Assembly (NCBI RefSeq): GCF_029255125.1
Contig: NZ_JAPUVR010000145.1
Location: 1-42,708 of the forward strand
Direction: 5' to 3'
Origin: Accumulibacter sp.
GTDB taxonomy: Bacteria > Pseudomonadota > Gammaproteobacteria > Burkholderiales > Rhodocyclaceae
DNA length: 42,708 bases
Shown here: positions 7,159-42,708 of the stretch, piece after piece
How positions within the stretch are numbered: the first letter of the stretch is position 1
How the letters are laid out: each line of letters opens with the position of its first letter
Program-made: the position numbers and the translations under genes
The notes under the pieces: model-generated
Seen by the model: the letters and a program-made list of their open reading frames with translations, nothing else
The model's database searches: none
What the model was told of the DNA's origin: nothing

Positions 7159-7175
7159 TGTCGACATTTCTTACA
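7159..7175 (+). promoter_or_regulatory. candidate enhancer-binding-protein site, copy 1
   Basis: TGTCGACATTTCTTACA. A near copy, TGTCGGCAAACTTTACA, occurs at 16314-16330. The shared pattern is TGTCGRCA, four variable bases, TTACA. In both places it lies exactly 64 bases before a sigma-54 promoter. The position suits an activator of the NtrC type; PrsR, known from PEP-CTERM systems, is a reasonable guess. Confidence 0.6.
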
Positions 7176-7239
7176 AGCCCTGGCTTGGCGCCGCGGCATG
7201 CCGGGTAGATTCGCCGTTAGGTCAGCGCCTCATCTTTTC

Positions 7240-7255
7240 AGGCACGAAATGTGCT
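7240..7255 (+). promoter_or_regulatory. sigma-54 (RpoN) promoter of the PEP-CTERM gene
   Basis: AGGCACGAAATGTGCT fits the consensus TGGCACG-N4-TTGCT with the essential GG and GC dinucleotides 10 bases apart; two positions differ. The predicted transcription start is near 7266. Confidence 0.6.
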
Positions 7256-7434
7256 GGGCCTGTCGCCGCAAGTGGACCAAGCTCGCGACTCCCGGTTGGG
7301 ACGGCCAGCGCAAGAGCGGCGCCACGCGAAGAATGACTCGAGCACACGTCTCCTCTGACCACGGGCGCGGCTGTTCGCCGAACGCGGACAGTGCGCCTTG
7401 GCAAGCAGGAGCGACCATTTTCAAGGAACGCGTA

Positions 7435-8133
7435 ATGACCAAAAAGCTTGTCAGCTCCCTGATCCTCGCCAGCGGTGCTTTGTTTGCCGGTGCCGCAAGT
7501 GCTTCCCTCGTGTTGAATACCGGCGTTGCGGCCGATGGAAGCGTCCTTTCTGCTGGAAGCATCGATCCCTTGTGGACGATTTCGACCGATGGCGTACAGT
7601 TCTCGGCGGCCCGGGTCGCCTATCCCGGCTCGTATCCCAACATGGCAGGTGGGCAGACGTGCTGCGGCATGGAGACGGTAGCCGGCGTGGCCGCCTGGAT
7701 TACCACGCCATCGGTGGTTGCCACCAGCCCGACGACCGGCTGGGGGGTTAACAACATGGTCTACGCCAGGCGCTCATTCGACCTCTCGGGCTACGATCTG
7801 AGCACAGTGACGCTGAACGGTCGCTTGCGCGTTGCCGATTCGTCGCACGGGATCTACATCAATGGTTCGTTGGTTCCTGGCACCGGCTATGCGGGCTACA
7901 CCTTCACGACCGACCACTTCTTCTCGCTGGCGGCGGGAAGCGGTCTTTTCCAGTCTGGCGCGAACCTGATCGAAATGCGCGGAGATTCGGTCAATGACGT
8001 GTGGGACGCCTTCTGGCTCGACGCGCAGGTCACTGGCCGCGCGAGTTCGGTTCCAGAACCGACGACGCTGGTGCTGCTGCTCGCCGGCTTGGCGCTGTGC
8101 GGCGTGCGCTCGGCAGGGCGCTGCGGGGAGTAG
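7435..8133 (+). CDS. PEP-CTERM sorting-domain protein
   Basis: This is an exported 232-residue protein. It has a signal peptide (about 1-23, cleavage near AASA) and a jelly-roll-like beta-sandwich body (YARRSFDLSGYDLSTV and YINGSLVPGT are typical). The C-terminal sorting signal, about residues 205-229, has VPEP, a hydrophobic helix (TTLVLLLAGLALCGV) and basic residues. Such signals are cut by an exosortase, and the proteins are linked to exopolysaccharide and floc formation; no exosortase gene is in this window. Although the frame is open upstream, ATG 7435 is chosen for its ribosome binding site (AAGGAA, 7423-7428) and the signal peptide. Two adjacent cysteines (QTCCGME) lie in the body. The gene has its own sigma-54-type promoter. 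Confidence 0.9.
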   Translation: MTKKLVSSLILASGALFAGAASASLVLNTGVAADGSVLSAGSIDPLWTISTDGVQFSAARVAYPGSYPNMAGGQTCCGMETVAGVAAWITTPSVVATSPTTGWGVNNMVYARRSFDLSGYDLSTVTLNGRLRVADSSHGIYINGSLVPGTGYAGYTFTTDHFFSLAAGSGLFQSGANLIEMRGDSVNDVWDAFWLDAQVTGRASSVPEPTTLVLLLAGLALCGVRSAGRCGE

Positions 8134-8259
8134 GATCGCGTTCCTGCAGCGGTCAGTGCATGTGGCCATCGATCGTAGCTGCCGATCGGAGCTCGTCGGT
8201 GCCGCCGGAGACGCTGACGCAGGGTCTGCGCAAGGCAAGCGCGCAGACCCGCTGTCAGG

Positions 8260-10623
8260 CTAGTAGAGGCAGGGAAGCAGTTTGCGCACGCGTTGCCGAT
8301 ACGCGTGGTATTCGGGGAATTTTTCTGCGAGCCAGATTTCCTCGCGGCGCGATTTGATGTCGAGAAAGATCAGGAGCAACAGAGCGTAGCCCAGCGTCAG
8401 CCAGCCGTTCAGCCATAGCGCCCAGCCAAAGGCGGCAAGGATCAGGCCGCTGTAGATCGGATGCCGGACGAGGCGGTAGATGCCGCTGACGACCAGTACG
8501 GCGTCTTTCCTCGGCTGCGGCAAGGGCGTCAGGTTCTTGCCGAGCTGGACGCAGGCGAGCAGCGCGATGGTGATGCCGATCGCCAGCAGGGCGCCGCCAA
8601 AGAGTTTCCCGAGCCAGGTGCAGGGCGCTGTCCAGGCGGCGCCGGGCCAGGAACTTGGCGCGAACACGACGAGCGCGAGCAGAATCATCTGCACGAAGAC
8701 GTAGCCTTCGCCGCGGCGGCCAAACGCCGCCTCGCATGCCGTGCTCGCATTCTTCTTTCGCCGCCGGCAGCACCCGACGACGATGCCGATCAGCAGGCAG
8801 ATGAGCAGGAAGACGATGAACCCGAAGAGCAGCCAGGGAAACCTCTCGGCGCCGACCTTCCTGATCAGGTCGTTGACCAGGTCGGCTTCGACGGCGCCAA
8901 TTGCGCAGCTTGCCCCGCTACGCGGATTGCCGTAGAGGTCGCGTCCATCGACCAGATCGTGCGCGGCACAGATCGCCAGGCTGCCCGCATTGCGTGCGGG
9001 GCTGGACATCGTCGGGGCAAAACGGGCGTCGAGTGATGGATCGGCGACCGGGATCGTCGCGCCGCAGCCCGCATCCGGGTATTGCAGGTTGGCGCCTGCG
9101 AGCTTCAGCGTGGCCAGCGCATTCGCGCAGTTGCCCTGGTTGCCGGCGACGATCACGTTCGCCATGCTTGCTCCGACCGTGCCGCCCGGCGCCAGGTGCA
9201 AGCCCTCGCTTTGGTTGCCGATCAGCGTGCTGTTGGCAACTTCGACGTTCTGCGCGAAGAGCGCCGCACCGCCGGCGGTGCTCACGTTGCGCGCGAGCAG
9301 CGCGTTGCCCAGGCGCACGATTCCCGCGCCAGCATCGATCACGTGTTGCGTGGCGGTATTGTCGAGCACGAAGACGCGCGTCAGTTCGAGGCGCGTGGGC
9401 TGGCTGCCGGGCGCCGGCAAGTCCTTGCCGACATCTGCCGGCACTGCTTCCATGGGCGACGCGCTGGCGCTGACCAGGGCGATCGCGCCGCCCGATTCAC
9501 CCGCCTTGTTGCGGCTCATCTGTACGGCGTCGCCCGCCACGTCGCCGAGCAGCAACAGCGCGCCGCCGTCCTTGGCCGCCTGGTTGTCGCGCAGCTTGAC
9601 GTGCCCGAGGCGCAGGCGCAGGCGGGCGTTCAGCGGATTGCTGCCGGCCGGCGAGAGGTAGGCGAGGGCGCCGCCGGACAGCGCGTGATTGGCCTCGAAG
9701 TCCGACGACTGCAGCGTCAGCGTCGAGCGCGCGGCGAGTATTGCGCCGCCGAGCATGCCGCGGTTGTTCGTGAAGCTGCTGCGCGAAATGGTCGCGTTGG
9801 CAAAGGCGACTTCGACCGCGCCGGCGGCGCTGCGGGCGAGTTCGAGGTAGATGCGGTTGGCGTACAGCCAGCCACGCCCACCGGCGGCGAAGGGCAGCGC
9901 GTCGCCGTTGTCGGTGAAGCTCGATTGATCGATGACGAGTTCGCCGGCAGCCCAGAAAGCGGGTCGCTTGTTGCGCTCGAAGCTGCACTTGCGCACCTGC
10001 GCCGAGATCTGCCGCCCGCTGGTCACAGGATCGCTGCGCCAGAGCGCGTGGAACGGACGCGACAGGTTGTCGCGGAAAGCGACTTGCTCAAGTTCGAGTT
10101 CGCCGGCCATGACGACGCCGAAATCCGGCTGCCTGGCGTCGCCATTGCGAGCGAAGGTGCTGGCGCGCGCGACGAGCTTGCGCACGGCAAATGGCAGGCG
10201 GGTGTCGGTCACTGTCACCTTGTTCAGCTCGACGACCGCCAGGTCGTTGCGGTCATAAACGATACCGGTGAACATGTTGGGGTCGGCCGGGTTGGCCGGC
10301 GGATTGCTCAGCGTCAGGTTGCGCAGGGTCAGCCGGGCTGGCCCGGCAGGGACGAACATGACGCCGTTGCCGGTACCGCTCAGCGTCGCCCCTCCGCCGT
10401 CGATCGTCGTCGCGCCGCTCAGCACGCGCTCGCCGGTGAGCTTGATTTCGTTTGGCCCGCCGGCGCAGGCGATGCGGATGTCGCCGCCGGTAGCCAGCGC
10501 GCTGACCAGGTTGACTCCACCGGCGGCGTTGTCGGTGCCGCAGGCGGTGACGACGGTTTCCGCCTGTGCGGCGAGCGCTGCGCCGAGCAGCAGGAGGCCC
10601 TTCAGGAAGTCAAGGCAGCGCAC
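8260..10623 (-). CDS. periplasmic beta-helix protein fused to an ICMT-like membrane methyltransferase domain
   Basis: This 787-residue protein has an unusual layout. Residues 1-21 are a signal peptide. About 50-500 form a right-handed parallel beta-helix with recurring NN.A...GGA turns. About 490-580 resemble the choice-of-anchor Q region. Residues 595-619 are a membrane helix followed by CCRRRKK. About 640-787 form a polytopic domain of the isoprenylcysteine carboxyl methyltransferase/PEMT superfamily, with YRLVRHPIYSG at 716-726 and EEIWL at 761-765. The positive-inside rule puts the helix outside and the methyltransferase-like site towards the cytoplasm, where SAM is available. The frame is uninterrupted through the junction. 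The start overlaps the upstream 920-residue gene by 14 bases, so they form an operon. The substrate is unknown. Confidence 0.8.
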   Translation of the reverse strand: MRCLDFLKGLLLLGAALAAQAETVVTACGTDNAAGGVNLVSALATGGDIRIACAGGPNEIKLTGERVLSGATTIDGGGATLSGTGNGVMFVPAGPARLTLRNLTLSNPPANPADPNMFTGIVYDRNDLAVVELNKVTVTDTRLPFAVRKLVARASTFARNGDARQPDFGVVMAGELELEQVAFRDNLSRPFHALWRSDPVTSGRQISAQVRKCSFERNKRPAFWAAGELVIDQSSFTDNGDALPFAAGGRGWLYANRIYLELARSAAGAVEVAFANATISRSSFTNNRGMLGGAILAARSTLTLQSSDFEANHALSGGALAYLSPAGSNPLNARLRLRLGHVKLRDNQAAKDGGALLLLGDVAGDAVQMSRNKAGESGGAIALVSASASPMEAVPADVGKDLPAPGSQPTRLELTRVFVLDNTATQHVIDAGAGIVRLGNALLARNVSTAGGAALFAQNVEVANSTLIGNQSEGLHLAPGGTVGASMANVIVAGNQGNCANALATLKLAGANLQYPDAGCGATIPVADPSLDARFAPTMSSPARNAGSLAICAAHDLVDGRDLYGNPRSGASCAIGAVEADLVNDLIRKVGAERFPWLLFGFIVFLLICLLIGIVVGCCRRRKKNASTACEAAFGRRGEGYVFVQMILLALVVFAPSSWPGAAWTAPCTWLGKLFGGALLAIGITIALLACVQLGKNLTPLPQPRKDAVLVVSGIYRLVRHPIYSGLILAAFGWALWLNGWLTLGYALLLLIFLDIKSRREEIWLAEKFPEYHAYRQRVRKLLPCLY

Positions 10624-13372
10624 GTTTTGGCTTCTCCTGGTCGCTGAAGTCGACGCTCATCGTTTCGCCGGTACGCGGGTTGCGGATCGTGTAGCTCGCT
10701 GTCCCGGTGCGGTTGATCACGTCGCCCTGCGCACGTGGCCAGGCGGGTAGCGCGCCGTGCGCCTGCGCGACGCCGCCCGCTTCGCTGACCCACGCGCCAT
10801 GCGGTGCAAACTTGATGATGCCGTTGGTGCGCGAAGCATAGGTGAAAGTGCCCAGTCCGGACTTGCTCGCCATTTCGTCGAAGTTCGCGGCGTTGGCGGC
10901 GAGCACCTGATCATGCAGATCCTTGCTGGTCGCCGCCGGCGTGCGCGGCACTACTTCGATGAAGCCCCACTGGCTACCTGCCGCGCAGTCACTGCTGCCG
11001 GCGCACGCCTGCTCGTAGACGACGACGAAGAAGTCGTCGCCTGCGTCGCCGTTATCCCACGCCTTGCAGTTTGCTGAGTCGATCAGCGAAAACCGCCGAC
11101 CGGCGGGAAGCGCGGCGGAGTCGTGGGTGACCATGCAGGCGCGCAGGAAGTCGGGAATCTGCAGGTTGATTCCGCAGGCGAACGAGCCGTGGACGCAGAA
11201 GTTGTCGTTGAACGACATCGGCTCGTCCTCCTGGTCGATCTTCCAGCGCACGACCTTGCCCTCGAAGCGGATGAAGTGGGCGAAACGATCCTGCCGGAGC
11301 GGCTGCTCGACGCGCGCCGGCGGCAGCTCGCGGCAGCTTCCGGTGGCTTCGCAGGCGGGCAGGCGCTTGCCCGAGCTGACCATCAGCGTGGTCGGCACGC
11401 CGGCGCCACGGTCGGTCCACTTGATGAAGGCGCTCGGGTAGATCGTCCCGGTCGGTGTGCGCAAGCCCTGCGCGTAGCCGCTCTCGCTGCCGCCAGCGGT
11501 GATCAGCCACGCCTTGCCGCTGCTGTAGCGCTCCCAGCCGGCGTGGCGCAGCGTCTGCGTCCACGCGCCCTTGACCAGTGCCAGGTCGAGCAGCAGGCGG
11601 TGCGGTGTGTAGGCCGAGGTCGCCTCCCAGATCATCTCGGCCAGGCTGTCCTCGCTGGCGTGGCCGTCAGGACCGTGCAAAGTCTGCCCGGCCCAGAGCT
11701 GCATTGCGGCGATCTGGTGATCGGCAAGGCCGGAAAGCTCGAACAGCGAGCGGACGGCCGCGCGCTTGCTGTGATCCTTTTCCAGCTTGCCGAGCGTGTA
11801 GTCGGTATTGGCGTGCGCCAGGCGGCGGAAGGGCACGATGCGCCTGCCCTGGTTGCTGCCCAGCGCCATCTTGGCGGCGGTGAGGTCGCCGACGACGGCA
11901 ACGCCGGTGATGAGCTGCGCGTCGTCGGCAGAACACGCTGGCACGCCGGCCTGGCAGGAAAAGTCGTGCAGGTTGAGCAGTGCGGTGAAGCTGAGGCGGC
12001 CATAGGGTTTGGCGTTGAATTCCGCGAAGTCCTCGTCGGTGACGCGCTGCAGTCTTTGCATCAGCCAGGCGTGGATTTCCCGGTTGTACGCCTGATAGTC
12101 GGCGACCGCGTCGCTGTCGCCGATCGCTGCCGAGTCTTCGATGAGCATCTGGTTCTTCAGATATTTCGAGGAATTTTGCATGAACAGGTGGTTTTCCGTC
12201 TCCTCGACGCCGCCGAACAGCGCGCCCAGGGCGATCTGGGGAATTTCCGCGGCGACTGCCAGCGCGCTGAGCAGCGTGATGATGATCGCCGCGACGAGCG
12301 GGCCGACGATTGCGCCGAGCAGCGCGGCAAGCAGCGCGAGAGCGACGCCGGCGATGATCAGCGCCAGGAAGAGGAGCAGCAAGGCCAGGAAGTCGAGGAA
12401 GTCGTCGCCCGTATCCGAACCCTCGGCGTCGCCGTCCACGTCGCGGCCGAGGTCCGGGTCGTAGAAGCTGTTGTCGTCCAGGCGGTCGCGCGCGCTGCCG
12501 TACTGATTGTCCGGATTGCCGCAATGCCAGAGCGGATGCACCTCCTGCGCTTTGCCGCCGCTCAGGGTGAGCAGGCGGGTCTGCAGCTTGTCGATCGCGT
12601 CAGCGCTTTCCGCACTCGGCGGCGTCAGCGTTGCCGCCTGGCGCAGCAGGAAGGTGAGTCGGGTGAGCAGCGCAACCGCCATGTCCCAGTCGGCTTCCGG
12701 CGGCGAACCGAACAGGTGACACGGCAAGCCGCTCGAACCCGGGTTGCCCTGGCGCACGAAGCGCCGGTCGAGGATGACCGAGTTGATCTGGCGCGCGAGA
12801 CAGGCGGGGCTGAGCGAGTAGCTCACCCGGTATTCGACGACTCGCTCGCCGCTGCCCCCGCGCGCGACGATGCGCGGCTCGACGCGCGTGACGACCGCCT
12901 CGCAAACGCCACCGAAGACTTGCGCGGCAAAAGCGTTCACTGTGCGTCGGATGGTCTCCGCGACTTCGCCCAGGCGCGCCGGGTCGGGCGGCAGCGGTTT
13001 GTTGAGGTCCTGGTCGAGCGCCTCGATCGCTGCCTTGAGCGCCGGCCCCTCGGGCAGCAGCTTTTCCCACTCGCTGATGGCGAAGACCTGCGTCGTCGCG
13101 CAGGGCTGCAGGTGCCGGTCGATCAGCCCGGCAAGGACCGCCGCCTTGGCGATCATGATCTCGTTTGGGCGTTCAGCGAGGCTCAGCTTGTGGCGGATGA
13201 AAGTCGCTTCGACGCCGCAGGCGAGTTCGCGGATGACGCGCTTCTGGCGATCCGGCAAGCTTGCCTGCGCCGTCGTACCGTCAATCGGGATCGGGCCGAG
13301 ATCGCGCGAGCGGGCGTGCGCCAACGGTACGCAGGCCAGCAAGATCAGGAGAACGGCGACGATCCTCGGCAT
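10610..13372 (-). CDS. large exported protein of unknown function with central membrane segments and a toroid-like region
   Basis: I do not recognise a named family. The 920-residue protein has a signal peptide (1-20), a helical N-terminal part to about 290, and an acidic linker (about 301-327). Residues about 325-388 are very hydrophobic, enough for two or three membrane helices. Then come ENHLFMQNSSKYLKNQ (393-408) and EFNAKPYGRLSFTALLNLHDF (451-471 by position; key residues E451, N453, Y457). The ENH...YL..Q and EFN..Y....ALLNL.DF patterns resemble alpha/alpha-toroid carbohydrate-active proteins; this is from memory and tentative. The C-terminal 300 residues are rich in cysteine pairs and beta strands. 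GGGAG precedes the ATG at 13372. It overlaps the beta-helix/ICMT gene and lies 61 bases after the ATPase gene. Confidence 0.7.
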   Translation of the reverse strand: MPRIVAVLLILLACVPLAHARSRDLGPIPIDGTTAQASLPDRQKRVIRELACGVEATFIRHKLSLAERPNEIMIAKAAVLAGLIDRHLQPCATTQVFAISEWEKLLPEGPALKAAIEALDQDLNKPLPPDPARLGEVAETIRRTVNAFAAQVFGGVCEAVVTRVEPRIVARGGSGERVVEYRVSYSLSPACLARQINSVILDRRFVRQGNPGSSGLPCHLFGSPPEADWDMAVALLTRLTFLLRQAATLTPPSAESADAIDKLQTRLLTLSGGKAQEVHPLWHCGNPDNQYGSARDRLDDNSFYDPDLGRDVDGDAEGSDTGDDFLDFLALLLLFLALIIAGVALALLAALLGAIVGPLVAAIIITLLSALAVAAEIPQIALGALFGGVEETENHLFMQNSSKYLKNQMLIEDSAAIGDSDAVADYQAYNREIHAWLMQRLQRVTDEDFAEFNAKPYGRLSFTALLNLHDFSCQAGVPACSADDAQLITGVAVVGDLTAAKMALGSNQGRRIVPFRRLAHANTDYTLGKLEKDHSKRAAVRSLFELSGLADHQIAAMQLWAGQTLHGPDGHASEDSLAEMIWEATSAYTPHRLLLDLALVKGAWTQTLRHAGWERYSSGKAWLITAGGSESGYAQGLRTPTGTIYPSAFIKWTDRGAGVPTTLMVSSGKRLPACEATGSCRELPPARVEQPLRQDRFAHFIRFEGKVVRWKIDQEDEPMSFNDNFCVHGSFACGINLQIPDFLRACMVTHDSAALPAGRRFSLIDSANCKAWDNGDAGDDFFVVVYEQACAGSSDCAAGSQWGFIEVVPRTPAATSKDLHDQVLAANAANFDEMASKSGLGTFTYASRTNGIIKFAPHGAWVSEAGGVAQAHGALPAWPRAQGDVINRTGTASYTIRNPRTGETMSVDFSDQEKPKRALP

Positions 13373-13433
13373 TTCATTCTCCCGGGCAGACGGTCAAGGC
13401 GCGGTCAGGGCGGACTGTAACAGGATCGGCCGC

Positions 13434-16151
13434 TCAGGCGCCAACTCGACGGCGCGTGCGCCAGCGCTTTTCGAGTCCGACGACGACGAAGGCGACGATG
13501 CCGACGGCGGCGATCTCGAGCCATTCGTTGACGCCAATCGGGGCGGTAGCGAAGAGCCGGTTCATCAGCGGAAGGTAGGTCAGGAGTCCTTGCAGGAGTG
13601 CCATGACGAGAACGCCGTACCAGATCGCCGGGTTGGAGAAGACGCCGATCCGCCAGGCCGAACGCGTCAGCGATCGGCAATTGAACAGATACATGGCTTC
13701 GACGACGACGAAGACGTTGACGGCGACCGTGCGGGCTTCGGCGAGCGAGTTTCCCTGCTCGAGTTCACGCAGGAAAAGTCCGAACGATCCGGCGAGGAGC
13801 AGCACGCTGACCAGAACGATGCGCCAGACCAGAGCCGGGTCGAGGATGGGCTGGCCGGGTGGGCGCGGCGGGCGGTGCATGACGCTGTGCTCGATCGGCT
13901 CGAACGCCAGCATCAGGCCGAGGAAGACTGCCGTCGTCATGTTGATCCAGAGGATTTGCAGCGGCGTGATCGGCAGCGTCGCGCCGGCGAGGACCGCGGC
14001 AACGATCACCAGACCCTCGCCGAAGTTGGTCGGCAAGGTCCAGGTGATGAACTTGACCAGATTGTCGAAAACGCCGCGTCCCTCCTCGATCGCCGCCTCG
14101 ATGCTGGCAAAGTCATCGTCGGTGAGGACCATGTCGGCGGCGTCCTTGGCCACTTCGGTCCCCGCCTGGCCCATGGCGATGCCGATGTCGGCCTGTTTCA
14201 GGGCCGGGGCGTCGTTGACGCCGTCGCCGGTCATCGCGACGATCTCGCCGTTTGCCTGCAGCGCACGGACCAGACGCAGCTTCTGCTCGGGTTCGACGCG
14301 CGCGAAGACCGCGGTGCTCCTGACCACGGTGCGCAGAGCGTCGTCGTCGAGCGCCGCCAGTTCGCGCCCGGTCAGCGCGCTGTCGCCGGCCTGCGCGATG
14401 CCCAGATGGCGGGCAATCGACAACGCAGTGACCGCGTGGTCGCCGGTGATCATCTTGACTGCGATTCCCGCTGCATGACAAGCGCGAACCGCGCTGATCG
14501 CCTTCGCACGAGGCGGATCGATCATGCCGAACAGACCGACGAACTGCAGGCCGCCAGCCGCGCTGGCAGCGTCCAGTGTCGTCGCCTCGGCGCCAAACAG
14601 ACGCGCGACGGCGAGCACACGCAAGCCTTGCGCCGCCATATTGCGCGCCGCGCCGTCGATTTCGGCACGGCGCAGCGCGACGACCGTGCCGTCCGCGTCG
14701 AGCATGCTCACTGAACGCGGCAACAACTGTTCGAGCGCGCCCTTGAAGTAGGCGATGCGCGTTCCTTCAATCTCGTGCAGCGTCGCCATATATTGGCGCG
14801 CCGAATCGAAAGGAATCTCGTCGAGGCGGGGAAACATCGTGGCCAAGGTCCGCTCGTCGAGCCCGGCCTTGCGCGCGGTGACCAGCAGGGCTCCTTCGGT
14901 CGGATCGCCGACGATCTCCCAGTGGCGGTTGCTGCGCCGCAGCGCCGCATCGTTGCAGAGGACGCCGGCGAGCAGGCATTCGCGCAAGGCACCGCTGATT
15001 TCCTGTCCGTCGCCCAGCTTGCCGTTCGGCGCGTAGCCGTTGCCGCTGACCATCGTCTGCACGCCGCCGGCATGAATCTCGCGTACCGTCATCTGATTCT
15101 CGGTCAGCGTGCCGGTCTTGTCCGAGCAGATCACCGTCGTGCTGCCCAGCGTTTCGACTGCCGGCAGCTTGCGGATGATTGCCCGCCGGCGAGCCATGCG
15201 CGAGACGCCGATCGCCAGGGTGATGGTCATCGCCGCCGGCAGACCTTCCGGAATGGCGCCAACCGCCAGCGCGACGGCAGCCATGAACATTTCGAACGCC
15301 GCTTCGCCGCGCAGCAGGCCGACGGCAAAGGTGAGCAGGGCGAGCAGGCTGATCGCGATCAACAGCCAGTTGCTGAAACCGGCCATCTTGCGCGTCAGCG
15401 GCGTCGTCAAGTCGGGCGCTTCGGCGATCAGGCGCGAGATGCGTCCGGTTTCGGTGCGGTCGCCGGTGGCCACGACGAGTCCTGCACCCTGGCCGCTGAT
15501 CATGACGGTTCCCGCGTAAGCCATGTTGCAGCGATCGGCGAGCAGCGTGTCTTCGGGCAAAGCAGCGCCATGCTTGCTGACCGCGGCCGATTCGCCGGTC
15601 AGCGCCGACTCGATCGCCTGCAGGTCCTTGCTGCGGAACAGGCGCAGGTCGGCGGGAACCTTGTCGCCGGCGGCCAGAAGAACGATGTCACCGGGAACGA
15701 GCTCGGTCGACGGCAGGCGTTGCTTGCCGCCCGCGCGCAGCACGGTGACCTCGCTGGTCACCGCCAGGCTGAGCGCGGCCAGCGCATTCTCCGCCCGACC
15801 TTCCTGAATGAAACCGATGATGGCATTGATCAGGGTGACGCCGAAGATCACGCCGGCGTCGACCCATTCGCCGAGCAGTGCGGTGACCACGGCGGCGAGG
15901 AGCAGAACGACGACCAGTGGCTGGACGAACTGCAGGGAAAAACGGCGCAGCGGCCCCTTTCGAGCACGTGGGGAGATCCGGTTTTCGCCGTGGACCGCGC
16001 GTCGCCCGATGACTTCGGCTTCGCCCAAGCCGTCGGCGCAACTCGCCTCCAGGCGCAGGGCCACTTCCTCGGCAGCAAGAAAGTGCCAGGCAACCCGGGG
16101 CGGTTCGTCGCGCATCGCACGACCCGGACGAGCGGCGCGCCGTGCGTTCAA
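13434..16151 (-). CDS. type II (PacL/Pma1-like) cation-transporting P-type ATPase
   Basis: This is a 905-residue inner-membrane ion pump. TGES is at 185-188 (actuator), PEGLP at 301-305 (membrane helix 4), the phosphorylated Asp344 in DKTGT, KGA at 470-472 in the nucleotide domain and TGDGVND at 641-647. Helix 6 reads NMTTA (737-741), whereas SERCA-type calcium pumps have an N..TD pattern; the acidic ligand is therefore missing, as in a subgroup of bacterial and archaeal type II pumps. Calcium specificity should not be assumed. The start is probably TTG at 16151, because GGGAGGTGA lies about 6 bases upstream; the first in-frame ATG, at 16115, has no ribosome binding site. It is followed closely by the 920-residue exported-protein gene. 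Confidence 0.9.
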   Translation of the reverse strand: MNARRAARPGRAMRDEPPRVAWHFLAAEEVALRLEASCADGLGEAEVIGRRAVHGENRISPRARKGPLRRFSLQFVQPLVVVLLLAAVVTALLGEWVDAGVIFGVTLINAIIGFIQEGRAENALAALSLAVTSEVTVLRAGGKQRLPSTELVPGDIVLLAAGDKVPADLRLFRSKDLQAIESALTGESAAVSKHGAALPEDTLLADRCNMAYAGTVMISGQGAGLVVATGDRTETGRISRLIAEAPDLTTPLTRKMAGFSNWLLIAISLLALLTFAVGLLRGEAAFEMFMAAVALAVGAIPEGLPAAMTITLAIGVSRMARRRAIIRKLPAVETLGSTTVICSDKTGTLTENQMTVREIHAGGVQTMVSGNGYAPNGKLGDGQEISGALRECLLAGVLCNDAALRRSNRHWEIVGDPTEGALLVTARKAGLDERTLATMFPRLDEIPFDSARQYMATLHEIEGTRIAYFKGALEQLLPRSVSMLDADGTVVALRRAEIDGAARNMAAQGLRVLAVARLFGAEATTLDAASAAGGLQFVGLFGMIDPPRAKAISAVRACHAAGIAVKMITGDHAVTALSIARHLGIAQAGDSALTGRELAALDDDALRTVVRSTAVFARVEPEQKLRLVRALQANGEIVAMTGDGVNDAPALKQADIGIAMGQAGTEVAKDAADMVLTDDDFASIEAAIEEGRGVFDNLVKFITWTLPTNFGEGLVIVAAVLAGATLPITPLQILWINMTTAVFLGLMLAFEPIEHSVMHRPPRPPGQPILDPALVWRIVLVSVLLLAGSFGLFLRELEQGNSLAEARTVAVNVFVVVEAMYLFNCRSLTRSAWRIGVFSNPAIWYGVLVMALLQGLLTYLPLMNRLFATAPIGVNEWLEIAAVGIVAFVVVGLEKRWRTRRRVGA

Positions 16152-16313
16152 CGCCGGTCACCTCCCTGCGCCTGCGTGGGCAAGGCGCGGATTGCGCGAG
16201 GGGTTGCGCGAGCATGCGTCATTTCGATCATCGTGGGGCACGCTGTCCGACAACAGATTCGGCTATCGTAGTCCAGCCCGGGCTGAGCCGCAAACCGCTT
16301 GGCGTGGAAAACC

Positions 16314-16330
16314 TGTCGGCAAACTTTACA
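16314..16330 (+). promoter_or_regulatory. candidate enhancer-binding-protein site, copy 2
   Basis: TGTCGGCAAACTTTACA, matching the element at 7159-7175 at 12 of 17 positions, with TGTCG, CA and TTACA shared. It stands 64 bases before the -24/-12 promoter at 16395, the same distance as in copy 1. Confidence 0.6.
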
Positions 16331-16394
16331 GCGGGTGTGCTGCAGGTTCGCTTTTCTTGGCGCAGGGGCTTGCTTTAATGATATGGTGTGCCTA

Positions 16395-16410
16395 TGGTGC
16401 GAGACTTGCT
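16395..16410 (+). promoter_or_regulatory. sigma-54 (RpoN) promoter of the exported unknown gene
   Basis: TGGTGCGAGACTTGCT fits TGGCACG-N4-TTGCT with the GG and GC exactly 10 bases apart and only two mismatches. The predicted start of transcription is near 16421, giving a leader of about 22 bases to the ATG at 16443. Confidence 0.7.
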
Positions 16411-16442
16411 TTAGCTAGTGGCGATAACTTGGAATGATCTGC

Positions 16443-17390
16443 ATGATGACGACGCGACGGGCACGTCTGTTATGGCTGGTGTTCATCCAGACGCTGGTCG
16501 TCGCGGGTAGTTCACTGGCGACACCGATTACCGGCGACGGTTGGAATGTCACGGACCACGTCGTGTTTGATCTTGGCGACGACGACGAGCCGGTTCTCGT
16601 CGGTAGCGAGGTGGATGCCACCGGGTTCGCTGCCGAGCTTCCCGAGCTTGGCTTGGCTTTTGGCGGGCGGGCGCTGGCCTTGCCCAATCCCTTCCCCGCG
16701 GGTGGAGGTGCGCCGGCGGATCGCTGGTCTGGGTCGCCGACCGACGCCGTGTCCGCACGCTCAGGCAAATTCGAGACGGAGCGGCGGTCGTTTCCCTCGG
16801 CGGCGATGGCCGGGCGCGAACGCGTGCTTCCATCCGGCGACGCGCCGGGCCAGGTGTTGGCGGTCGAGGCCGAGGAGCCAGTCGTGCAGACGGCGCGCGA
16901 GGTCGAGCGCTGGATGGTCGAAGCGGTCGCCGATGCGCTCGACATGCGACGAACCGAGCGCGCTGGCCAGGTCAGCTTTTCGTTGGCCGGCATCGAAGAG
17001 CTGCACTTGACCAGGAACGACGACGGGGTGGCCCTTGGTCACGATGGCAATACGCTGCTCGCGACTGAGCGGAGCAATGACTTGGCCCGGCAGAGATCAT
17101 CGATGGCGGCGAGCACGGCCTCGTCGGCTTCGGTCCAGGCGAGCGGCGGAATTGGCCTGATCGGCCAGTTGATCGGCATGGTACGGGACGCGATCGAGTA
17201 TCCCTTGTTCTGGGTCGTCTTCGCTTTGCTGCTGGCCGGCAAGATTGCCTGGCTGGTTGCTCGCCGCTTCAGCGCAAGCGAGCGGCGCCAGCAGCGGCGG
17301 TCGGCTTCCAGCCGGCGTCATGAGCGCCGTCATACGCCTGGGCGCAGCGTCCGCCTACCGGCCGAAGCAGGGCGGCCGATCGCCCAGTAA
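16443..17390 (+). CDS. exported membrane-anchored protein of unknown function, RpoN-regulon candidate
   Basis: No family is recognised. The 315-residue product has an N-terminal signal sequence (basic TTRRARLL, then a hydrophobic stretch to about 27). A low-complexity, Gly/Ala/Ser-rich body follows with an acidic patch (DLGDDDEP). Near the C-terminus is a hydrophobic helix (YPLFWVVFALLLAGKIAWLV), then a long Arg-rich tail. Helix plus basic tail recalls PEP-CTERM architecture, but there is no PEP motif and the tail is too long. ATG 16443 is preferred to 16434 because GGA at 16431-16433 is then 9 bases away. Its promoter shares both elements, with the same spacing, with the PEP-CTERM gene. It converges on the porin gene. 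Confidence 0.65.
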   Translation: MMTTRRARLLWLVFIQTLVVAGSSLATPITGDGWNVTDHVVFDLGDDDEPVLVGSEVDATGFAAELPELGLAFGGRALALPNPFPAGGGAPADRWSGSPTDAVSARSGKFETERRSFPSAAMAGRERVLPSGDAPGQVLAVEAEEPVVQTAREVERWMVEAVADALDMRRTERAGQVSFSLAGIEELHLTRNDDGVALGHDGNTLLATERSNDLARQRSSMAASTASSASVQASGGIGLIGQLIGMVRDAIEYPLFWVVFALLLAGKIAWLVARRFSASERRQQRRSASSRRHERRHTPGRSVRLPAEAGRPIAQ

Positions 17391-17433: not shown

Positions 17434-18897
17434 TCAGAAAGCGAGCTGTAGACGGACGCCCGCGATGCTGGCGTGCGGCAGGTTCAGACCCGGGTTCAGA
17501 ATACGCTGGAACAATGGCTGCAGGACGACGCCCGGGGCGGCCTGCGCCCGGTAGGCAATCTCCAGCACGCTTTCCGATTCTGCCGAGAGCGACGCGCCAA
17601 GGGCGCTGGCCAGGGCGCTTCTGCCTTGCGCTCCGACGTGTGCGCGGGTAAGGGCGATGCCAAAAGTGTCGTTGTCCCGGCCGGCGAAAGGTCCCCGCAG
17701 GCTGAGGCCGAAGCTGAGCGAGTAGTCGAGGTTGTTCGTCCGGCCGTCGGCAATGCCGTAGCGGAAAAACACGGCGACATCGCGGTTTTCTCCGGGTACA
17801 CGATAAAGCGTCTGCTCGGCAAGGAGGTAGGCGCCCCAATGGCGCGCGGTAAGCGCTTCGCCCGCTTCGCTGACGGCAGCGATCTGCGCGAAGCGTGGGT
17901 TGAATCGCCACGCGCCGACAGCCAGCTTGCTGATCGGCGCAAAGTCGTCGTTCTTTTCGGCCGGGACGGCCGGCTGATCAGCGAGCAGGCCGGCCTTGGT
18001 CGGGCTGAAGCCCAGTTCGGCGATGAGCAGGCTGCCCGAGCCTTGCTGCCAGGTGATGTGCGGCCCGACCTGCCCGATACGCTCGCTCGGTACTGCTTGC
18101 GCCAACGCCACCATCGCGTACCAGGTGGGGTCGGGCTCGAAGCGAAGACGCGCACCATAGGAACTCGTCGGGTAGATTGGCGGTCCAGAGCGCGTGCCGA
18201 AATCGCCCGCTTCGGCCGCTATGCCGAACGACGGATGGAGAAAGATTCCCGAAGCGTCAGTGACGTAGAACTCGGTGTCTACCGGGTATAGGCCAAGCCG
18301 CAAGGAAGCACGATCGTCAAGGAAGGATTGTTGCCACCAGGCGCGGAAGACGCCAGTCCGGTTCAGCGGGGCTTCGATGTTGTCGCTGCCCATCAGGCTG
18401 CCGGCGTAACGTCCATTGAACGGGCCACCGCTGTTGTCGATCACCTGCAAATAAGCCGCGCCACCCGGCCAGCCGACGAGTTTCTCGGCGTCGAGTCGCA
18501 GCACCAGGTCGACGTGGCCGAGATAGGCGCTGCCCCGCCGCAGACCGCCGCTGGTGTTGCGCAGCCAGTCGCCGGTGTAGGACAGGTCGATCTTGATGCC
18601 GGCTTCCGCCAGGCGTTGCCGGCGACCCTGCCAGTCGCCGGTCAAGGTAGTCTCGCGCCATTCGGTCGGCGTGTCGGCCATCTCCAGATGGCGCAGGCGA
18701 TCGGTGGGCTCGTCGCCGGCTCCCGCCGGTTCGTCGCTCGGCGCGGTGCTTGCTTCGTCGCTCGCGGTGCCCGCCGATGCCGTCCGACCGTCCGCCGCCG
18801 CGGCAAGCCCGGATAGAGGTAGCGACAGCAGCGTGTAGACCAGGCAGGCGATTGACCCGAGCTTGCCGATGGTCTGGTTGATCCTGATTGCGTTCAT
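17434..18897 (-). CDS. OprB-family carbohydrate-selective porin
   Basis: This is an outer-membrane beta-barrel porin of 487 residues. Residues 1-35 form a signal peptide ending near GLAAA, followed by an Ala/Ser/Pro/Glu-rich linker to about 70. The barrel then starts with TLTGDWQGRRQRLAEAGI, a hallmark of OprB porins (LTGDWGG.R..L...GI). It ends in a terminal phenylalanine (RLQLAF), the BAM recognition signal. OprB homologues admit glucose and other sugars; the substrate here is unknown. The ATG at 18897 is chosen over longer upstream frames because GAGGAA precedes it and a signal peptide follows. Confidence 0.88.
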   Translation of the reverse strand: MNAIRINQTIGKLGSIACLVYTLLSLPLSGLAAAADGRTASAGTASDEASTAPSDEPAGAGDEPTDRLRHLEMADTPTEWRETTLTGDWQGRRQRLAEAGIKIDLSYTGDWLRNTSGGLRRGSAYLGHVDLVLRLDAEKLVGWPGGAAYLQVIDNSGGPFNGRYAGSLMGSDNIEAPLNRTGVFRAWWQQSFLDDRASLRLGLYPVDTEFYVTDASGIFLHPSFGIAAEAGDFGTRSGPPIYPTSSYGARLRFEPDPTWYAMVALAQAVPSERIGQVGPHITWQQGSGSLLIAELGFSPTKAGLLADQPAVPAEKNDDFAPISKLAVGAWRFNPRFAQIAAVSEAGEALTARHWGAYLLAEQTLYRVPGENRDVAVFFRYGIADGRTNNLDYSLSFGLSLRGPFAGRDNDTFGIALTRAHVGAQGRSALASALGASLSAESESVLEIAYRAQAAPGVVLQPLFQRILNPGLNLPHASIAGVRLQLAF

Positions 18898-19150
18898 TGA
18901 TTTCCTCGTCTCGACTGGTCGTCCCTTTTTATCCGATTCCCCTCTGGCGCACAAGCACTCGGCGTTGCCGCAGGGCCGTGCCTGGCGTGAGCGCCGGCGC
19001 GGCCGCCTGCCAGCCAGCACGGGCGGGTCGAGTCGACCGAAGGGCTGGGCAGCCTTGTCTGCCGCTTCCGGGTATACTGCGCCCAAGCCTAGTGGTTTCC
19101 GCACTCAGCGGCCTTTGTTCTCTCCTCCTCACTTCGCCGGGAAGCCTATC

Positions 19151-22767: not shown

Positions 22768-24195
22768 GTGAGCCGGGAGCAGCTTTTTGCCTTAATGCCG
22801 GGCAGCGTCAACCCGCTGGCGAGACTGCTCGCGCTGCGCCGCGTCGAAATCGTCGCGCAGTGCGCGGTGCTCATGATTGCCGTCGGCTGGCTCAGGATAC
22901 CCTTGGCCGTCGTCCCGATGACCGCGAGCATTGCCTTGCTCGCGTTGGCGAATCTGCTTACCCGTTGGCGGCTGGAGAAAGGCGGCGCGGTACGCCATGG
23001 CGAGGTGCTGGCGCAGCTCGTGCTTGATGTCGCGGTTCTCGCGCTGCTCCTCTACTTTGCCGGCGGTTCGGCGAATCCCTTTGTTTCGCTCTTCCTGCTC
23101 CCGCCGATGCTGGCGGCGGTGATGCTGCCGGCCGCCTACGCCTGGGCGATGGCCGGTCTGACCCTGTTTGCCTACACCTTCCTGATGTTCTGGAAGCTGC
23201 CTTTGCCCGCGCCGCAGGGCGACCTGGCGCAACTCGACGCGCTGTTTGCGCGGGCTGCCGGCGGCGTCGGCGAGCACCTCGGACACAGCAGCGGTTTCGC
23301 CCTGCACGTTCTCGGCATGTGGCTGAATTTCGTCATCAGCCTTGCCGTCGTGGCTTTCTTTCTAACCCGCATGGCGGCAGCGCTTGAAGCGCGCGAGCGC
23401 GAGCTGGCGGCGGCGCGTGAGGATGCGCTGCGCAACGAGCAGGTGCTGGCGCTCGGCACGCTCGCCGCTGGTGCGGCGCATCAGCTCGGGACGCCGCTGG
23501 CGACGATGGCGGTGATCATTCGCGAACTCGAACTGGCGCATGCCGATGGCGAACTGCGCGCCGATCTGTTGCTCCTGCGCGAGCAGGTGTACCGCTGCAA
23601 GCAGACGATTTCGCAGATCCTCGCCTCGACCGGGCACGAGCGTGCAGAAAGTCGACAGCCGCTGCGTCTGGATGCGTTCGTCCGCCGCCTGCTCGACGAA
23701 TGGCAGGTGATCCGGCCACAGGTACGCTGGCGACTCGATCTGTTGGGAGAACAGCCAGCGCCGTGGGTCGCTGGCGAGCGAACGCTCGAACAGGCGATTC
23801 TCAATCTGCTCGACAATGCGGCGGATGCGAGCAGCGCATCGGTCACCGGCGCCGCTGGCAGCCGTGCCGATGGCGAGCGGCCGAGCGAACCGGCGGTCGT
23901 CGTCGCCGTCACCTGGGATGCAGCGTGCTGCCGCATCGACATCCTCGATCGCGGCCCGGGGCTGCCGGAAGACATGGCCAAGCGCTTTGGCCGGGCTTTT
24001 GCCAGCAGCAAGACGCTCGCCGAGGACAGACCGGGCGGTCTTGGTCTGGGGCTTTTCCTGGCCAATGCGACGATCGAGCGCTTCGGCGGCAAGGTCGAGT
24101 TGTTCAACCGCGGCGATTCGCTGGGTGGCGCGTGTACCCGGATCAGCCTGCCGCTGCAGCGCCTGACGGCCGGTGCACATGTCGGACATGCCTGA
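22768..24195 (+). CDS. regB: redox sensor histidine kinase, RegB/PrrB/ActS family
   Basis: This is a 475-residue membrane kinase. About six membrane helices occupy residues 25-215, with the RegB quinone-sensing motif GGSANPF at 99-105. The phosphorylated His238 lies in AAGAAHQLGTPLATM, the characteristic RegB H-box. N-box (NLLDNAAD), DRGPGLP and GLGLGLFLAN ATP-binding boxes follow. RegB kinases respond to ubiquinone redox state and control respiration, energy and carbon metabolism. I did not locate a redox-active cysteine equivalent to the one described in Rhodobacter. The start is GTG 22768, with AGGAG about 11 bases upstream. Its end overlaps regA. Confidence 0.9.
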   Translation: MSREQLFALMPGSVNPLARLLALRRVEIVAQCAVLMIAVGWLRIPLAVVPMTASIALLALANLLTRWRLEKGGAVRHGEVLAQLVLDVAVLALLLYFAGGSANPFVSLFLLPPMLAAVMLPAAYAWAMAGLTLFAYTFLMFWKLPLPAPQGDLAQLDALFARAAGGVGEHLGHSSGFALHVLGMWLNFVISLAVVAFFLTRMAAALEARERELAAAREDALRNEQVLALGTLAAGAAHQLGTPLATMAVIIRELELAHADGELRADLLLLREQVYRCKQTISQILASTGHERAESRQPLRLDAFVRRLLDEWQVIRPQVRWRLDLLGEQPAPWVAGERTLEQAILNLLDNAADASSASVTGAAGSRADGERPSEPAVVVAVTWDAACCRIDILDRGPGLPEDMAKRFGRAFASSKTLAEDRPGGLGLGLFLANATIERFGGKVELFNRGDSLGGACTRISLPLQRLTAGAHVGHA

Positions 24196-24754
24196 GCGAG
24201 CGGGCAGGATGGTCGACGACGAGCGGCCGACGCTGCTCCTGGTCGACGACGACGAAGTCTTCCGGCGCGTCCTGGCGCGTGCGCTGGAAAGACGCGGCTA
24301 TGCCGTCTCACCCGCGGCGGATGTCGCTTCGGCGCTTTCTCTGGCGCAGGCGCAGGCGCCCGAGTACGCCGTGGTCGATCTGAAAATGCCGGGAGATTCG
24401 GGGCTCTGCCTGATCGAGAAGCTGATCGAGCTCGATCCCAGCACGCGCATTGTGATGCTGACCGGCTACGCCAGCATCGCGACCGCGATCGAGGCGATCA
24501 AGCTGGGCGCGGTGCATTATCTCGCCAAGCCGTGCGACGCCGACGAGCTTGTCGCCGCGCTCAACAAGGGCAGCGAAGGCGATTCGACGATCCCGGTTGC
24601 CGGCTCGCCGCTATCTGTCGATCGTCTCGAGTGGGAACACATCCAGCGCGTCCTGAAGGAGCACCAGGGGAATGTGTCGGCGACTGCCCGGGCGCTGAAA
24701 ATGCATCGCCGCACCTTGCAGCGCAAGCTGGGCAAACGCCCGGTGAGGGAATAG
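24179..24754 (+). CDS. regA: response regulator, RegA/PrrA/ActR family
   Basis: This is the partner of RegB, 191 residues from ATG 24179. The receiver domain has the acidic pair in LLVDDDE, the phosphorylated Asp67 in VVDLKMPG, and Lys in LAKPCD. A short linker and a C-terminal Fis-type helix-turn-helix follow (HQGNVSATARALKMHRRTLQRKL by its ends HQGNVS and RRTLQRKL). The layout and length are those of RegA regulators. It overlaps the end of regB by 17 bases. GTG 24173 and ATGs at 24188 and 24209 are alternative starts; none has a strong ribosome binding site, so coupled translation is likely. Confidence 0.88.
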   Translation: MSDMPERAGRMVDDERPTLLLVDDDEVFRRVLARALERRGYAVSPAADVASALSLAQAQAPEYAVVDLKMPGDSGLCLIEKLIELDPSTRIVMLTGYASIATAIEAIKLGAVHYLAKPCDADELVAALNKGSEGDSTIPVAGSPLSVDRLEWEHIQRVLKEHQGNVSATARALKMHRRTLQRKLGKRPVRE

Positions 24755-26885: not shown

Positions 26886-29800
26886 CGTGCCCTTCCCGAT
26901 CCGTCGCCGAGCAGTAGCGCATCGAGCGATTCGATGCACGCCAGCGTTGGGCGATGACTGTAAACTCCACAGGTGCCGGCGCTGTCCCCGGTGTTGTCGG
27001 CGGTTTGCCATTGCGGGCGAACGCCGCGGACGAAAAGGTAATGCACGCTGCCGAAGTGACGCTGGTAGTCGTAGTCAGCGATTCGTTGACGCAGGTAGCG
27101 CTGCACGGCGACGGTGTAGAGGAGGTATTGCAAGTGGTAGCCGTGTTCGGCCATGGCCAGCGCCAGCCTGTCCTGTGCGTAGTCCGAAGCTTCGTAGCCC
27201 AGGTGGTTCGACTTCCAGTCTACGATGTGAAAGCGGCCGTCGTACTGAAAAATCAGATCGATGTAGCCCCTCAGGTAGCCGGCGAGCGGAATGAAGTCCA
27301 GCCGCGGCACTGGGTAGGCGCGTGTTTGCAGCCAGTGGTTGAGCGTTTGTGCGGCGAGCGGAGCGGCGGGCAGGGTGAAGCCCATCTCGGCGAGACGGTG
27401 CGCACGTCCGATTCGGGAGAGGATGATTCCGTTGGCGAGCGGCGTCGTCAGCACGTCGGCCAGCAGGCGCTGCAGCATGCGCGGCAGATGGTCGGGCGAC
27501 TGCTCGGCGGGCAGGTCGGCGAGCACTTGCGGGTGGGCAGCGAGCGTCTGCGCAATGGCGTCCGGCCACTGCCGCGCATCGGCAAAATCGACCCGCTCGA
27601 AGAGTTGATGCAGGCAGTCGCCGGCAGCCGCGCCGCGCGGAAAGCGAAGAATGTCGTCGCTCGCCAGCTCGCGCGGGATGCTGGGCGGTGCGCCTCGCCA
27701 TTCGGCGGCGGTGGGCTCGCCGGTCGTGCGGCCATCGTGGTCGATCGCGGCAGCTTCATGGTCGCGCGCGTGTTGCAGGCTGGTAAAGCTGTCGATCCGC
27801 CAGCCGCCGGTGATCGGGCCGGGTGCGGCAGCGACGCCGAGCGCCTCGGCGCCGCTGGTCGATGGCGCCAGCGCAACGGCGTCGAGGGGCAGCGGGGCGA
27901 GGGCAAGCGGCGCTCCATCAGCGGCCAGTGCGCGCCAGGCCTGGTTGATCTGTTCGGCGGTCAGTCGATGCTCGAGCCACTGCGCGTATTCCATGCCTGC
28001 ACCGGCGACCAGCCAGTTGAGCACGCTGCGGTTGCCTGCGGTGAGCGACGGGCGACCGAAGGCGAGCGTCGAATAGCAGCCGGCGACGAGATAACAGCGA
28101 TGGACCGCACGCGTCAGAGCGACGTAGATCTGGCGCATCGACTCCGCGTCGCGCGCCGCCCGGCGGCGCTGCCGGATGCTCTCGGCTTCGGCAGGCGCGA
28201 GCTCCGGCCGGAAATCGATCACTGGCCGGTCTTCGTCGTCGTGGTACTCGCAGCCTTCCAGCCGGTCCGCTGCGTTGCTCTGTCCGGACCACAGGAAAGG
28301 GCAGAAAACAACGCTGTATTCAAGCCCTTTCGCCTTGTGCACGGTGACGATCTGGACCAGATCCTGGTCCGATTCAAGACGCAACTGAGCGACCTCGTCC
28401 GCGCCGTCGCTGCGTCGCCGGCCGGCGAACCAGCGCAATAGGGCATCCGGGGCACCCTGCTCGAGCTCGGCCTGGTGCAGCAGTTCGCTCAAGTGCAGAA
28501 CGTTGGTCAGACGCCTTTCGCCGTCGCTGAGTGCGAGGACGCGGCGGGCGACGCCTTCGTCTTCCAGCCAGCGGCGCAGCAAGACGCCGACGCCGCGGCG
28601 CAACCAGAGTTCGCGGTAGTCGGTGAAGCGGACCATGCGCTGCAGCAAGCCGGCCTGGTCGCTGCCGAGCGCGGCAATCGCGGCTGCGTCATGGCCGAGC
28701 AGACAGGTGGCGAGCGCCGCCATCAGCAGCGACGGTCGACTGGGCTCGAGGACGGCGTGCAGGACGCGTTCGAGATCTTCGGCGTCGCTGGTGTGGAAAA
28801 TATTCTGCTGCGACAATTCGACGCTACCGATTCCCAGGCGGCGGAGGGCTTCGCGCAACTGGCGGCCTTGCGCATGGCTGCGCACGATGAGCGCGATGTC
28901 ACCGGCGCTGAGCGGTCGTTGATCGAGCGTGATGCGCCCGGCGCGCGCCTCGTTGAGCAGACGGGCGACTTCGTAGGCGGTCGCCGCCAGGACACGGTGG
29001 ACGGCGTCGGCGCGCATCGGTGGCTGACCGCCCTCGTCGGCGAGCAGCCAGATGCGCAATGGCGCCGGCGTCGGATCACTCAGGTCGAGCAGCAGCGGGC
29101 GCGGCTTTTCCCCCGCGCTGACCGGCGGGTAGCTCAGTCCGGGCAGGATGAAACAGCGCGGGTTGGCGGCAAACAGGGCGTTGTACGCGGCGAGCAGCGC
29201 AGGGGTCGAACGCTGGTTACTGCGCAGCGTGAATGGCGTTCCGGCGTGTCGCCGGGCGGCCAGGTAGGTCGGCAGGTCGGCGTTGCGAAAGCTGTAGATC
29301 GCCTGCTTCGGGTCGCCGACAAGAAAGAGCGAGCCGGACGGCTGTGTTTCGCCAGCGCCGTATATGCTGCGGAAGATCGAGTACTGCTGCGGGTCGGTGT
29401 CCTGAAACTCGTCGATCAGGGCAACTGGATAGCGCGTGCGCAGCGACTCGCGCAGCCACGCATTCTCGCCCGCGCCCAATGCGCCATCGACATGCTGCAG
29501 CAGGTCGTCGAAGGAGAGCAAACGTTGGCGCAGCTTCTCCTGGCGCAGCGAGCTGCCGGCTTCATCGAACATGCGCCGCAGCAGGCCGAGGCGGGCAAGT
29601 TCCAGCGTCTGCGTCAGCGCGCCGTACGCGGCCAGCAATTCGCGTGCGGCAACGAAAAAGGGATGTGCGGGCGGCGACTGGTTCTTCTTGGTGCGCGTGC
29701 CGATGACATCGGCGTCGAACAGCGACAACCTGGCAGCCTCGTCGGCTGGGGCAGCGAGCGCGTCGCCGTTCGCTAGCCACGCCTGCCAGGCGCGCGCCGC

Positions 29801-42645: not shown

Positions 42646-42708
42646 AACTGAAGAGTTTGATCCTGGCTCAGATTAAACGCTGGCGGCATGCCTTACACAT
42701 GCAAGTCG
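42646..42708 (+). rRNA. rrs: 16S ribosomal RNA, 5' end (runs off the window)
   Basis: From AACTGAAGAGTTTGATCCTG the sequence matches the universal start of bacterial 16S rRNA. The following GGCATGCCTTACACATGCAA is the form common in betaproteobacteria. Only 63 bases are present; the exact mature 5' end is estimated by analogy with E. coli. Confidence 0.95.

Follow-up and report, generated by a model that had tools for sequence, protein, structure and literature searches.

Two distant genes in a 42,708-nucleotide stretch of a Candidatus Accumulibacter genome (3.83 Mb, 150 contigs), hereafter the window, are each preceded by a 17-bp box and a −24/−12 sigma-54 core, and we assign both sites, with a probability of roughly 0.87, to the known proteobacterial class of PEP-CTERM box promoters driven by PrsR and RpoN (Table 1). 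Comparison with relatives suggests a further reading, which we consider likely: PrsR promoters would be modular and helix-quantised, running from the box through whole turns to an IHF site and through whole turns again to the core, with extra turns admitted in either arm; the step of about 11.3 bp would reflect the helical repeat that DNA loops have in vivo, in bacteria that are uncultured; and the same switch would also have been recruited by a lineage-specific, fast-evolving membrane protein of Accumulibacter.

Accumulibacter is described as a key phosphorus-removing organism (PMC6446978), and PEP-CTERM proteins have been connected with the formation of flocs and granules by bacteria in wastewater (PMC9850573; PMC12019908). 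Within the genus, the box allows the surface-protein regulon to be listed once spacing and the presence of the regulator are taken into account, and such a list would include non-PEP-CTERM members that a protein motif search misses. The ladder of spacings between box and core offers a stringent test of the way in which sigma-54 is contacted by an enhancer-binding protein when the loop is short, as well as an estimate of the in-vivo helical repeat from sequence alone.

Earlier work

The element, its spacing and the proposal of PrsR were in essence published in 2006, and the window promoters are further members; this part of our finding is a rediscovery, because Haft et al. (BMC Biol 4:29, PMC1569441) described the same promoter. 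In the text of that study, a 17-nucleotide motif 1 ending in TTTACA precedes proteobacterial PEP-CTERM genes and is followed, after a spacer of 62.8 ± 10.6 nucleotides (32–92), by a 17-nucleotide sigma-54 motif 2; the promoter occurred at 99 of 167 proteobacterial PEP-CTERM genes, a few sites preceded other genes, and a phylogenetic profile brought out PrsR, PrsK and PrsT, with PrsR as the predicted activator (PMC1569441). Box, spacer, core and PrsK/PrsR are shared with the promoters described here; the gene at 7435 encodes a PEP-CTERM protein as there, whereas the gene at 16434 does not, and its family is an added non-PEP-CTERM target.

The text of the 2006 report gives the spacer as mean, standard deviation and range, and in it we found no helical phasing, IHF, bend or loop for this promoter (PMC1569441); nor did we find phasing or IHF for PEP-CTERM box promoters in the open-access literature searched, as text without figures. 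Beyond these sources are the quantised architecture, that is, the spacing ladder and the enrichment of IHF-like sites, and the lineage-specific non-PEP-CTERM target. In Aquincola, transcription of pepA is reported to depend on RpoN1, with a predicted enhancer noted upstream, and complementation of a mutant with prsK or with prsK–prsR failed (PMC9850573).

Results and discussion

The first-pass annotation had reported the pattern TGTCGRCA-N4-TTACA upstream of both genes, with a core starting 81 bp after the start of the element in each case. Both sites and the offset are confirmed, the spacer being 64 bp each time, and GG-N10-GC is present in both cores. Judged against motif 1 of Haft et al., compared as a text description, the box at 16314 is exact and the one at 7159, ending in CTTACA, is one letter off; both spacers lie inside the published range of 32–92 nucleotides and near its mean of 62.8. 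That the window holds no other copy was borne out for exact copies; allowing up to two mismatches, six copies are present against 0.43 expected, a number reached by none of 100 shuffles. Sigma-54-like matches taken alone show no excess (6 against 9.4 expected); the signal is the pairing of a core with a box, not the core by itself.

Table 1 Features of the two promoters and the genes behind them in the window
Feature	Position	Strand	Details
PEP-CTERM box (motif 1; predicted PrsR site)	7159..7175	+	TGTCGACATTTCTTACA; one mismatch (C for T) to TGTCGRNANNNTTTACA
Sigma-54 −24/−12 core	7240..7255	+	AGGCACGAAATGTGCT; 10/12 consensus positions; spacer to box 64 bp
PEP-CTERM protein gene	7435..8133	+	232 aa; by eye, a signal peptide and VPEPTTLVLLLAGLALCGVRSAGR at the C-terminus; PF07589
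PEP-CTERM box	16314..16330	+	TGTCGGCAAACTTTACA; zero mismatches to TGTCGRNANNNTTTACA
Weak IHF-like site	16363..16375	+ (reverse orientation)	7/9 consensus positions; start 32 bp before core
Sigma-54 −24/−12 core	16395..16410	+	TGGTGCGAGACTTGCT; 10/12 consensus positions; spacer to box 64 bp
Exported membrane protein gene	16434..17390	+	318 aa; signal by eye; C-terminal hydrophobic helix, long basic tail

The gene behind the 7159 box had been called a PEP-CTERM gene, and its product indeed matches PF07589 over the cut-off (26.1 against 20.7 bits); the mechanical open reading frame start at 7198 falls inside the promoter. On the minus strand beside it, a single frame (8260–10623) joins a beta-helix region to a C-terminal phospholipid/isoprenylcysteine methyltransferase-like domain, a possible fusion. 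The sole one-mismatch copy of the element in the window, at 42681–42697, was rejected: it has the same letters as a match at another contig end (L040), whose surroundings look by eye like 16S rRNA, and on this basis the window's contig end is taken as 16S rRNA-like, holding a chance near-copy of the box. The match at C123:13685 was likewise rejected as 16S rRNA-like by eye.

Across the whole genome, the strict pattern occurs in four exact copies (reversed control pattern, none), all followed by a GG-N10-GC core, so that the outcome named beforehand as refuting the proposal, a chance frequency or a lack of nearby −24/−12 cores, did not occur. The spacers of these four copies are 64, 64, 66 and 75 bp. 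The copy with spacer 75 precedes a GDSL-lipase gene whose end looks PEP-CTERM-like by eye; behind the copy with spacer 66 lies a gene whose F5/8-type and PEP-CTERM matches are weak and fall short of the cut-off. Because the spacers differ, the 81-bp offset is a modal value; the identical geometry asserted for the two window promoters holds for that pair and fails as a fixed rule.

With up to two mismatches to the strict pattern, 105 copies are found against 47 in the reversed control. The recurring form of the box is better written TGTCGRNANNNTTTACA, which has 10 exact sites in the same genome against four, and we dropped the strict pattern as a regulon definition: it misses several PEP-CTERM genes that TGTCGRNANNNTTTACA catches, while TGTCGRNANNNTTTACA misses 7159 by one letter. 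The expectation that an element search would list the regulon stands, within the genus, for the box taken with its distance rule and co-occurring regulator, and not for the strict pattern with its four sites. A profile search gave 18 PF07589 loci in this genome (16 over the cut-off), and boxes do lie upstream of PEP-CTERM genes: 11 of the 18 have a box with at most two mismatches to TGTCGRNANNNTTTACA and a core, and no convincing box was seen at the other 7 within the stretch examined, which contig ends shorten in some cases.

Three further matches (C100:279895, C102:3694 and C122:83420) were rejected because the core is too distant, the nearest GG-N10-GC lying 112, 150 and 107 bp downstream, respectively, and because open frames run across or beside them; a fourth (C132:89710), where by eye the only core has a single −24 G, was left out of the count. 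Two other sites of this genome precede different kinds of gene. One (L042, contig C140, box at 37493, minus strand, spacer 74) is a second non-PEP-CTERM target, a 138-residue protein with no Pfam match; a cluster of five downstream proteins, with spacers of 71–74, recurs in the genus. The other (contig C79, box at 29290, minus strand, spacer 76) has box and core before a lipoprotein-like gene, which we take to resemble ApbE (FMN transferase).

Within the genus, TGTCGRNANNNTTTACA is found at 299 sites (sum of rows) in 28 genomes, all of which have boxes, and the reversed control is found at none. Of 107 genus sites, 96 are followed by a core matching at least 9 of 12 positions; a comparable stretch on the upstream side of the box has such a core in 15 of the 107. 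The box is noisier outside the genus than within it: 229 genomes of the class, our own included, hold 184 exact boxes against 35 reversed-control matches, and 49 of 101 exact boxes from PrsR-positive class genomes lack a core of at least 9/12. Where box and such a core are both present, a frame whose C-terminus is hydrophobic and has a literal PEP close by lies behind 7 of 10 sites in our genome, 54 of 96 in the genus, 18 of 52 in PrsR-positive and 2 of 3 in PrsR-negative class genomes. By this simple rule 42 of the 96 genus sites have no literal PEP-ending frame behind them, but the rule is crude, since variants such as VPLP are missed and some stretches stop before the gene end.

A common enhancer-binding protein, with PrsK/PrsR as the natural candidate, had been proposed for the two promoters, and this fits most of our tests. 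The genome encodes adjoining prsK (TIGR02916, 854 bits, C105:31484–33511) and prsR (TIGR02915, 735 bits, C105:33589–34920), both over their curated cut-offs; it also has a single rpoN, and ihfA is present. The box tracks PrsR, with exceptions both ways: exact boxes occur in 50 of 63 PrsR-positive genomes (none was found in the other 13) and in 27 of 166 PrsR-negative ones (Fisher p 5e-19). Another protein of the NtrC family might nevertheless read the box, PrsR merely co-occurring with it; in our genome the NtrC-like response-regulator profile has nine long matches, only one of them over the PrsR cut-off, and six PrsR-negative genomes carry 2–6 exact boxes each, with no PrsR over the cut-off in a second profile search of the six. 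We regard this account as decidedly unlikely, given that the box count in the 166 PrsR-negative genomes is near that of the reversed control (41 against 27), whereas the 63 PrsR-positive genomes hold 143 box sites against 8, and that the phylogenetic profile described in 2006 indicated the same protein (PMC1569441). PrsR as the activator shared by both promoters is the reading we keep; identical spacing, taken earlier as the sign of a common activator, is not required, since the distances step in a ladder of roughly 11.3 bp per rung.

Three class genomes (G186, G257 and G266) have 4–6 exact boxes each, yet none of their proteins passes the family cut-off for PrsR; their boxes may be read by a diverged PrsR or by some other activator. 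In the window itself, positions 22768–24754 hold a RegB/PrrB-like histidine kinase (below the model cut-off) beside a short response regulator that carries a Fis-type helix; this pair is neither PrsK nor PrsR, whose genes lie on another contig.

The ladder was measured by scoring the best sigma-54-like 16-mer in the stretch 20–159 bp past the box, for 230 unique exact boxes. Duplicates had been set aside, as had boxes followed by fewer than 176 bp; next to go were the 69 of 230 with a core below 9/12; the remaining 161 were reduced to 143 promoters by deduplication on gapped spacer similarity. The set is a sample, made of 80 genus regions from 8 of the 28 genomes with other-genome sites from further loci, and, for the class, of 80 regions from PrsR-positive genomes only, with loci that include 12 of the 41 boxes of PrsR-negative genomes. 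The 143 spacers cluster at 42, 50–53, 61–66, 71–76, 85–88, 96–99, 108, 119 and 130 bp, with single values outside the clusters at 69, 79, 81, 83, 89, 90, 94 and 154; those of some relatives (96–130) go beyond the published 32–92.

A period of 11.28 bp fits best (bootstrap 95% CI 11.16–11.44); 132 of the 143 spacers are no more than 2.5 bp from phase, where 44% would be expected, and 11 are out of phase. With the main peak removed (n = 75), R is 0.74, the 99.9th percentile of the null being 0.385, and a stricter core threshold gives periods of 11.26 and 11.20. Own and genus promoters (n = 95) yield 11.26 and class promoters (n = 48) 11.32. The period exceeds 10.5 and falls inside the 10.95–11.60 bp per turn that fits lac repressor loops in E. 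coli in vivo (PMC1762422). A periodic A+T pattern, of the kind reported inside the spacers of qrr enhancers (PMC4740811), was not seen by autocorrelation in the 62–66 register (n = 70).

Sites resembling the IHF consensus are enriched between box and core. Among the 143 spacers, 17 hold a perfect match and 75 a match of at least 8/9, against 1.1 and 22.2 in dinucleotide shuffles; in the 161 undeduplicated promoters, 21 perfect matches lie in the spacers and one in an equal length just upstream of the box. A reverse-oriented site starting 31–33 bp before the core is present in 32 of 143 promoters against 0.6 by mononucleotide shuffle, with 20 of 95 in own and genus promoters and 12 of 48 in the class outside the genus (shuffles about 0.3 each). 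Over 45 reverse-oriented sites, most arms differ by approximately whole turns, with box-to-IHF/IHF-to-core pairs of 20/31, 31/32, 32/42, 42/32, 42/43, 53/43 and 54/44, and 9 of the 45 depart from the usual arm lengths in our own reading. Fits to the IHF distances alone were best at 10.1, 10.3, 11.3 or 12.2 and so do not settle on one period. The best match is 6/9 in the 7159 promoter, which lacks a convincing site, and 7/9 in the 16314 promoter, a match too weak to stand alone that sits at the modal position of other promoters, 32 bp before the core; because both are weak, the box–IHF–core form fits the class and not securely the two window promoters.

In the mechanism we propose, PrsK would phosphorylate PrsR, which would bind the 17-bp imperfect palindrome as a dimer and contact sigma-54 polymerase at a core that here lies 64 bp further on, via DNA looping, a loop that the helical phasing suggests. 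The box-to-core distance is limited to whole turns of a helix of about 11.3 bp per turn, as the spacer statistics show, so that the 81-bp offset is the commonest rung. In many, though not all, relatives, a statistically supported IHF-like site between box and core, often at favoured distances from each, presumably bends the loop. The switch would turn on PEP-CTERM surface proteins and, in Accumulibacter, the non-PEP-CTERM membrane protein of 16434.

Sigma-54 promoters of the NtrC/NifA type combine an enhancer, an IHF-type bend and a −24/−12 core; in the promoters studied here, by contrast, the enhancer is in most cases a lone 17-bp box, the loop is short, and a ladder can be seen across many natural promoters. 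Another likeness is to the qrr genes of Vibrio, activated by LuxO and sigma-54, where the loop lengths of 61 natural enhancers are reported to cluster about 11 bp apart, a similar observation on a smaller scale (PMC4740811). That system has another activator and regulon, tandem LuxO sites and loops of about 80–120 bp, and its account, as far as consulted, describes no quantisation of IHF arms such as the PrsR set displays (PMC4740811).

The gene behind the 16314 box had been described as exported and membrane-anchored, and so it appears, its product matching no Pfam or NCBIfam family and not PF07589. The product runs from a signal (by eye) through a variable middle and a conserved GRVTFSLAGVEGFH-like stretch to a C-terminal helix (YPLxWVLxFxLLIGKIAL) and a basic tail. 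A PEP-CTERM protein should have a PEP, a transmembrane helix and, at its extreme C-terminus, a basic cluster; in an alignment of 17 family proteins no PEP precedes the helix and a long basic tail follows it, and by these features the product is not a PEP-CTERM protein. Beyond our own genome, homologues were recovered from 26 of 27 genomes of the genus and from none of 33 others, and one peptide pattern matched 16 named relatives, 15 labelled Accumulibacter and one Pseudomonadota.

Box and core also stand before 15 of 27 other loci of this family, two of which (L063 and L084) look like near-identical copies; in nine listed cases, our own included, the core ends 11–32 bp before the start codon, and among four related loci with a near-identical core the spacer is 61–62 in two and 75 in two. 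The 16434 promoter might be a chance or relic copy, with the gene outside the regulon, as could be argued from a product without PEP motif or known domain and from the 12 other loci without a box (one of them without upstream sequence); its retention at 15 loci, although the proteins are only 20–27% identical, makes this very unlikely in our judgement, and the regulation of the gene would group its product with the surface proteins. Common descent has also to be weighed for the ladder, which could reflect a few promoters copied with indels in place of selection on helical phase: many sites come from one genus, and 68 of the 161 fall into 24 clusters with related downstream genes. Yet 143 promoters remain after gapped-alignment deduplication and genus and class sets agree separately on the period, and insertions or deletions preserving whole turns among related promoters would in themselves point to selection; we consider such an artefact very unlikely and retain helical-phase selection as the probable origin of the steps.

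The 16434-type gene lies between genes for a calcium-type P-ATPase and a phosphoglycerate mutase at 11 of the 16 loci of these named relatives; at the other five one neighbour was not found, mostly where the stretch ends, although one of them (L308) has room and lacks the ATPase. Full-length family proteins are 20–27% identical to the window's, against approximately 77–89% for the products of these neighbouring genes; the family is fast-evolving, mostly syntenic and, in the genomes searched here, confined to Accumulibacter. In the window, an OprB-type porin gene (17434–19104, minus strand) separates the 16434 gene from the mutase gene; it looks relocated here, because several other Accumulibacter loci have the mutase within about 1 kb and no porin match between.
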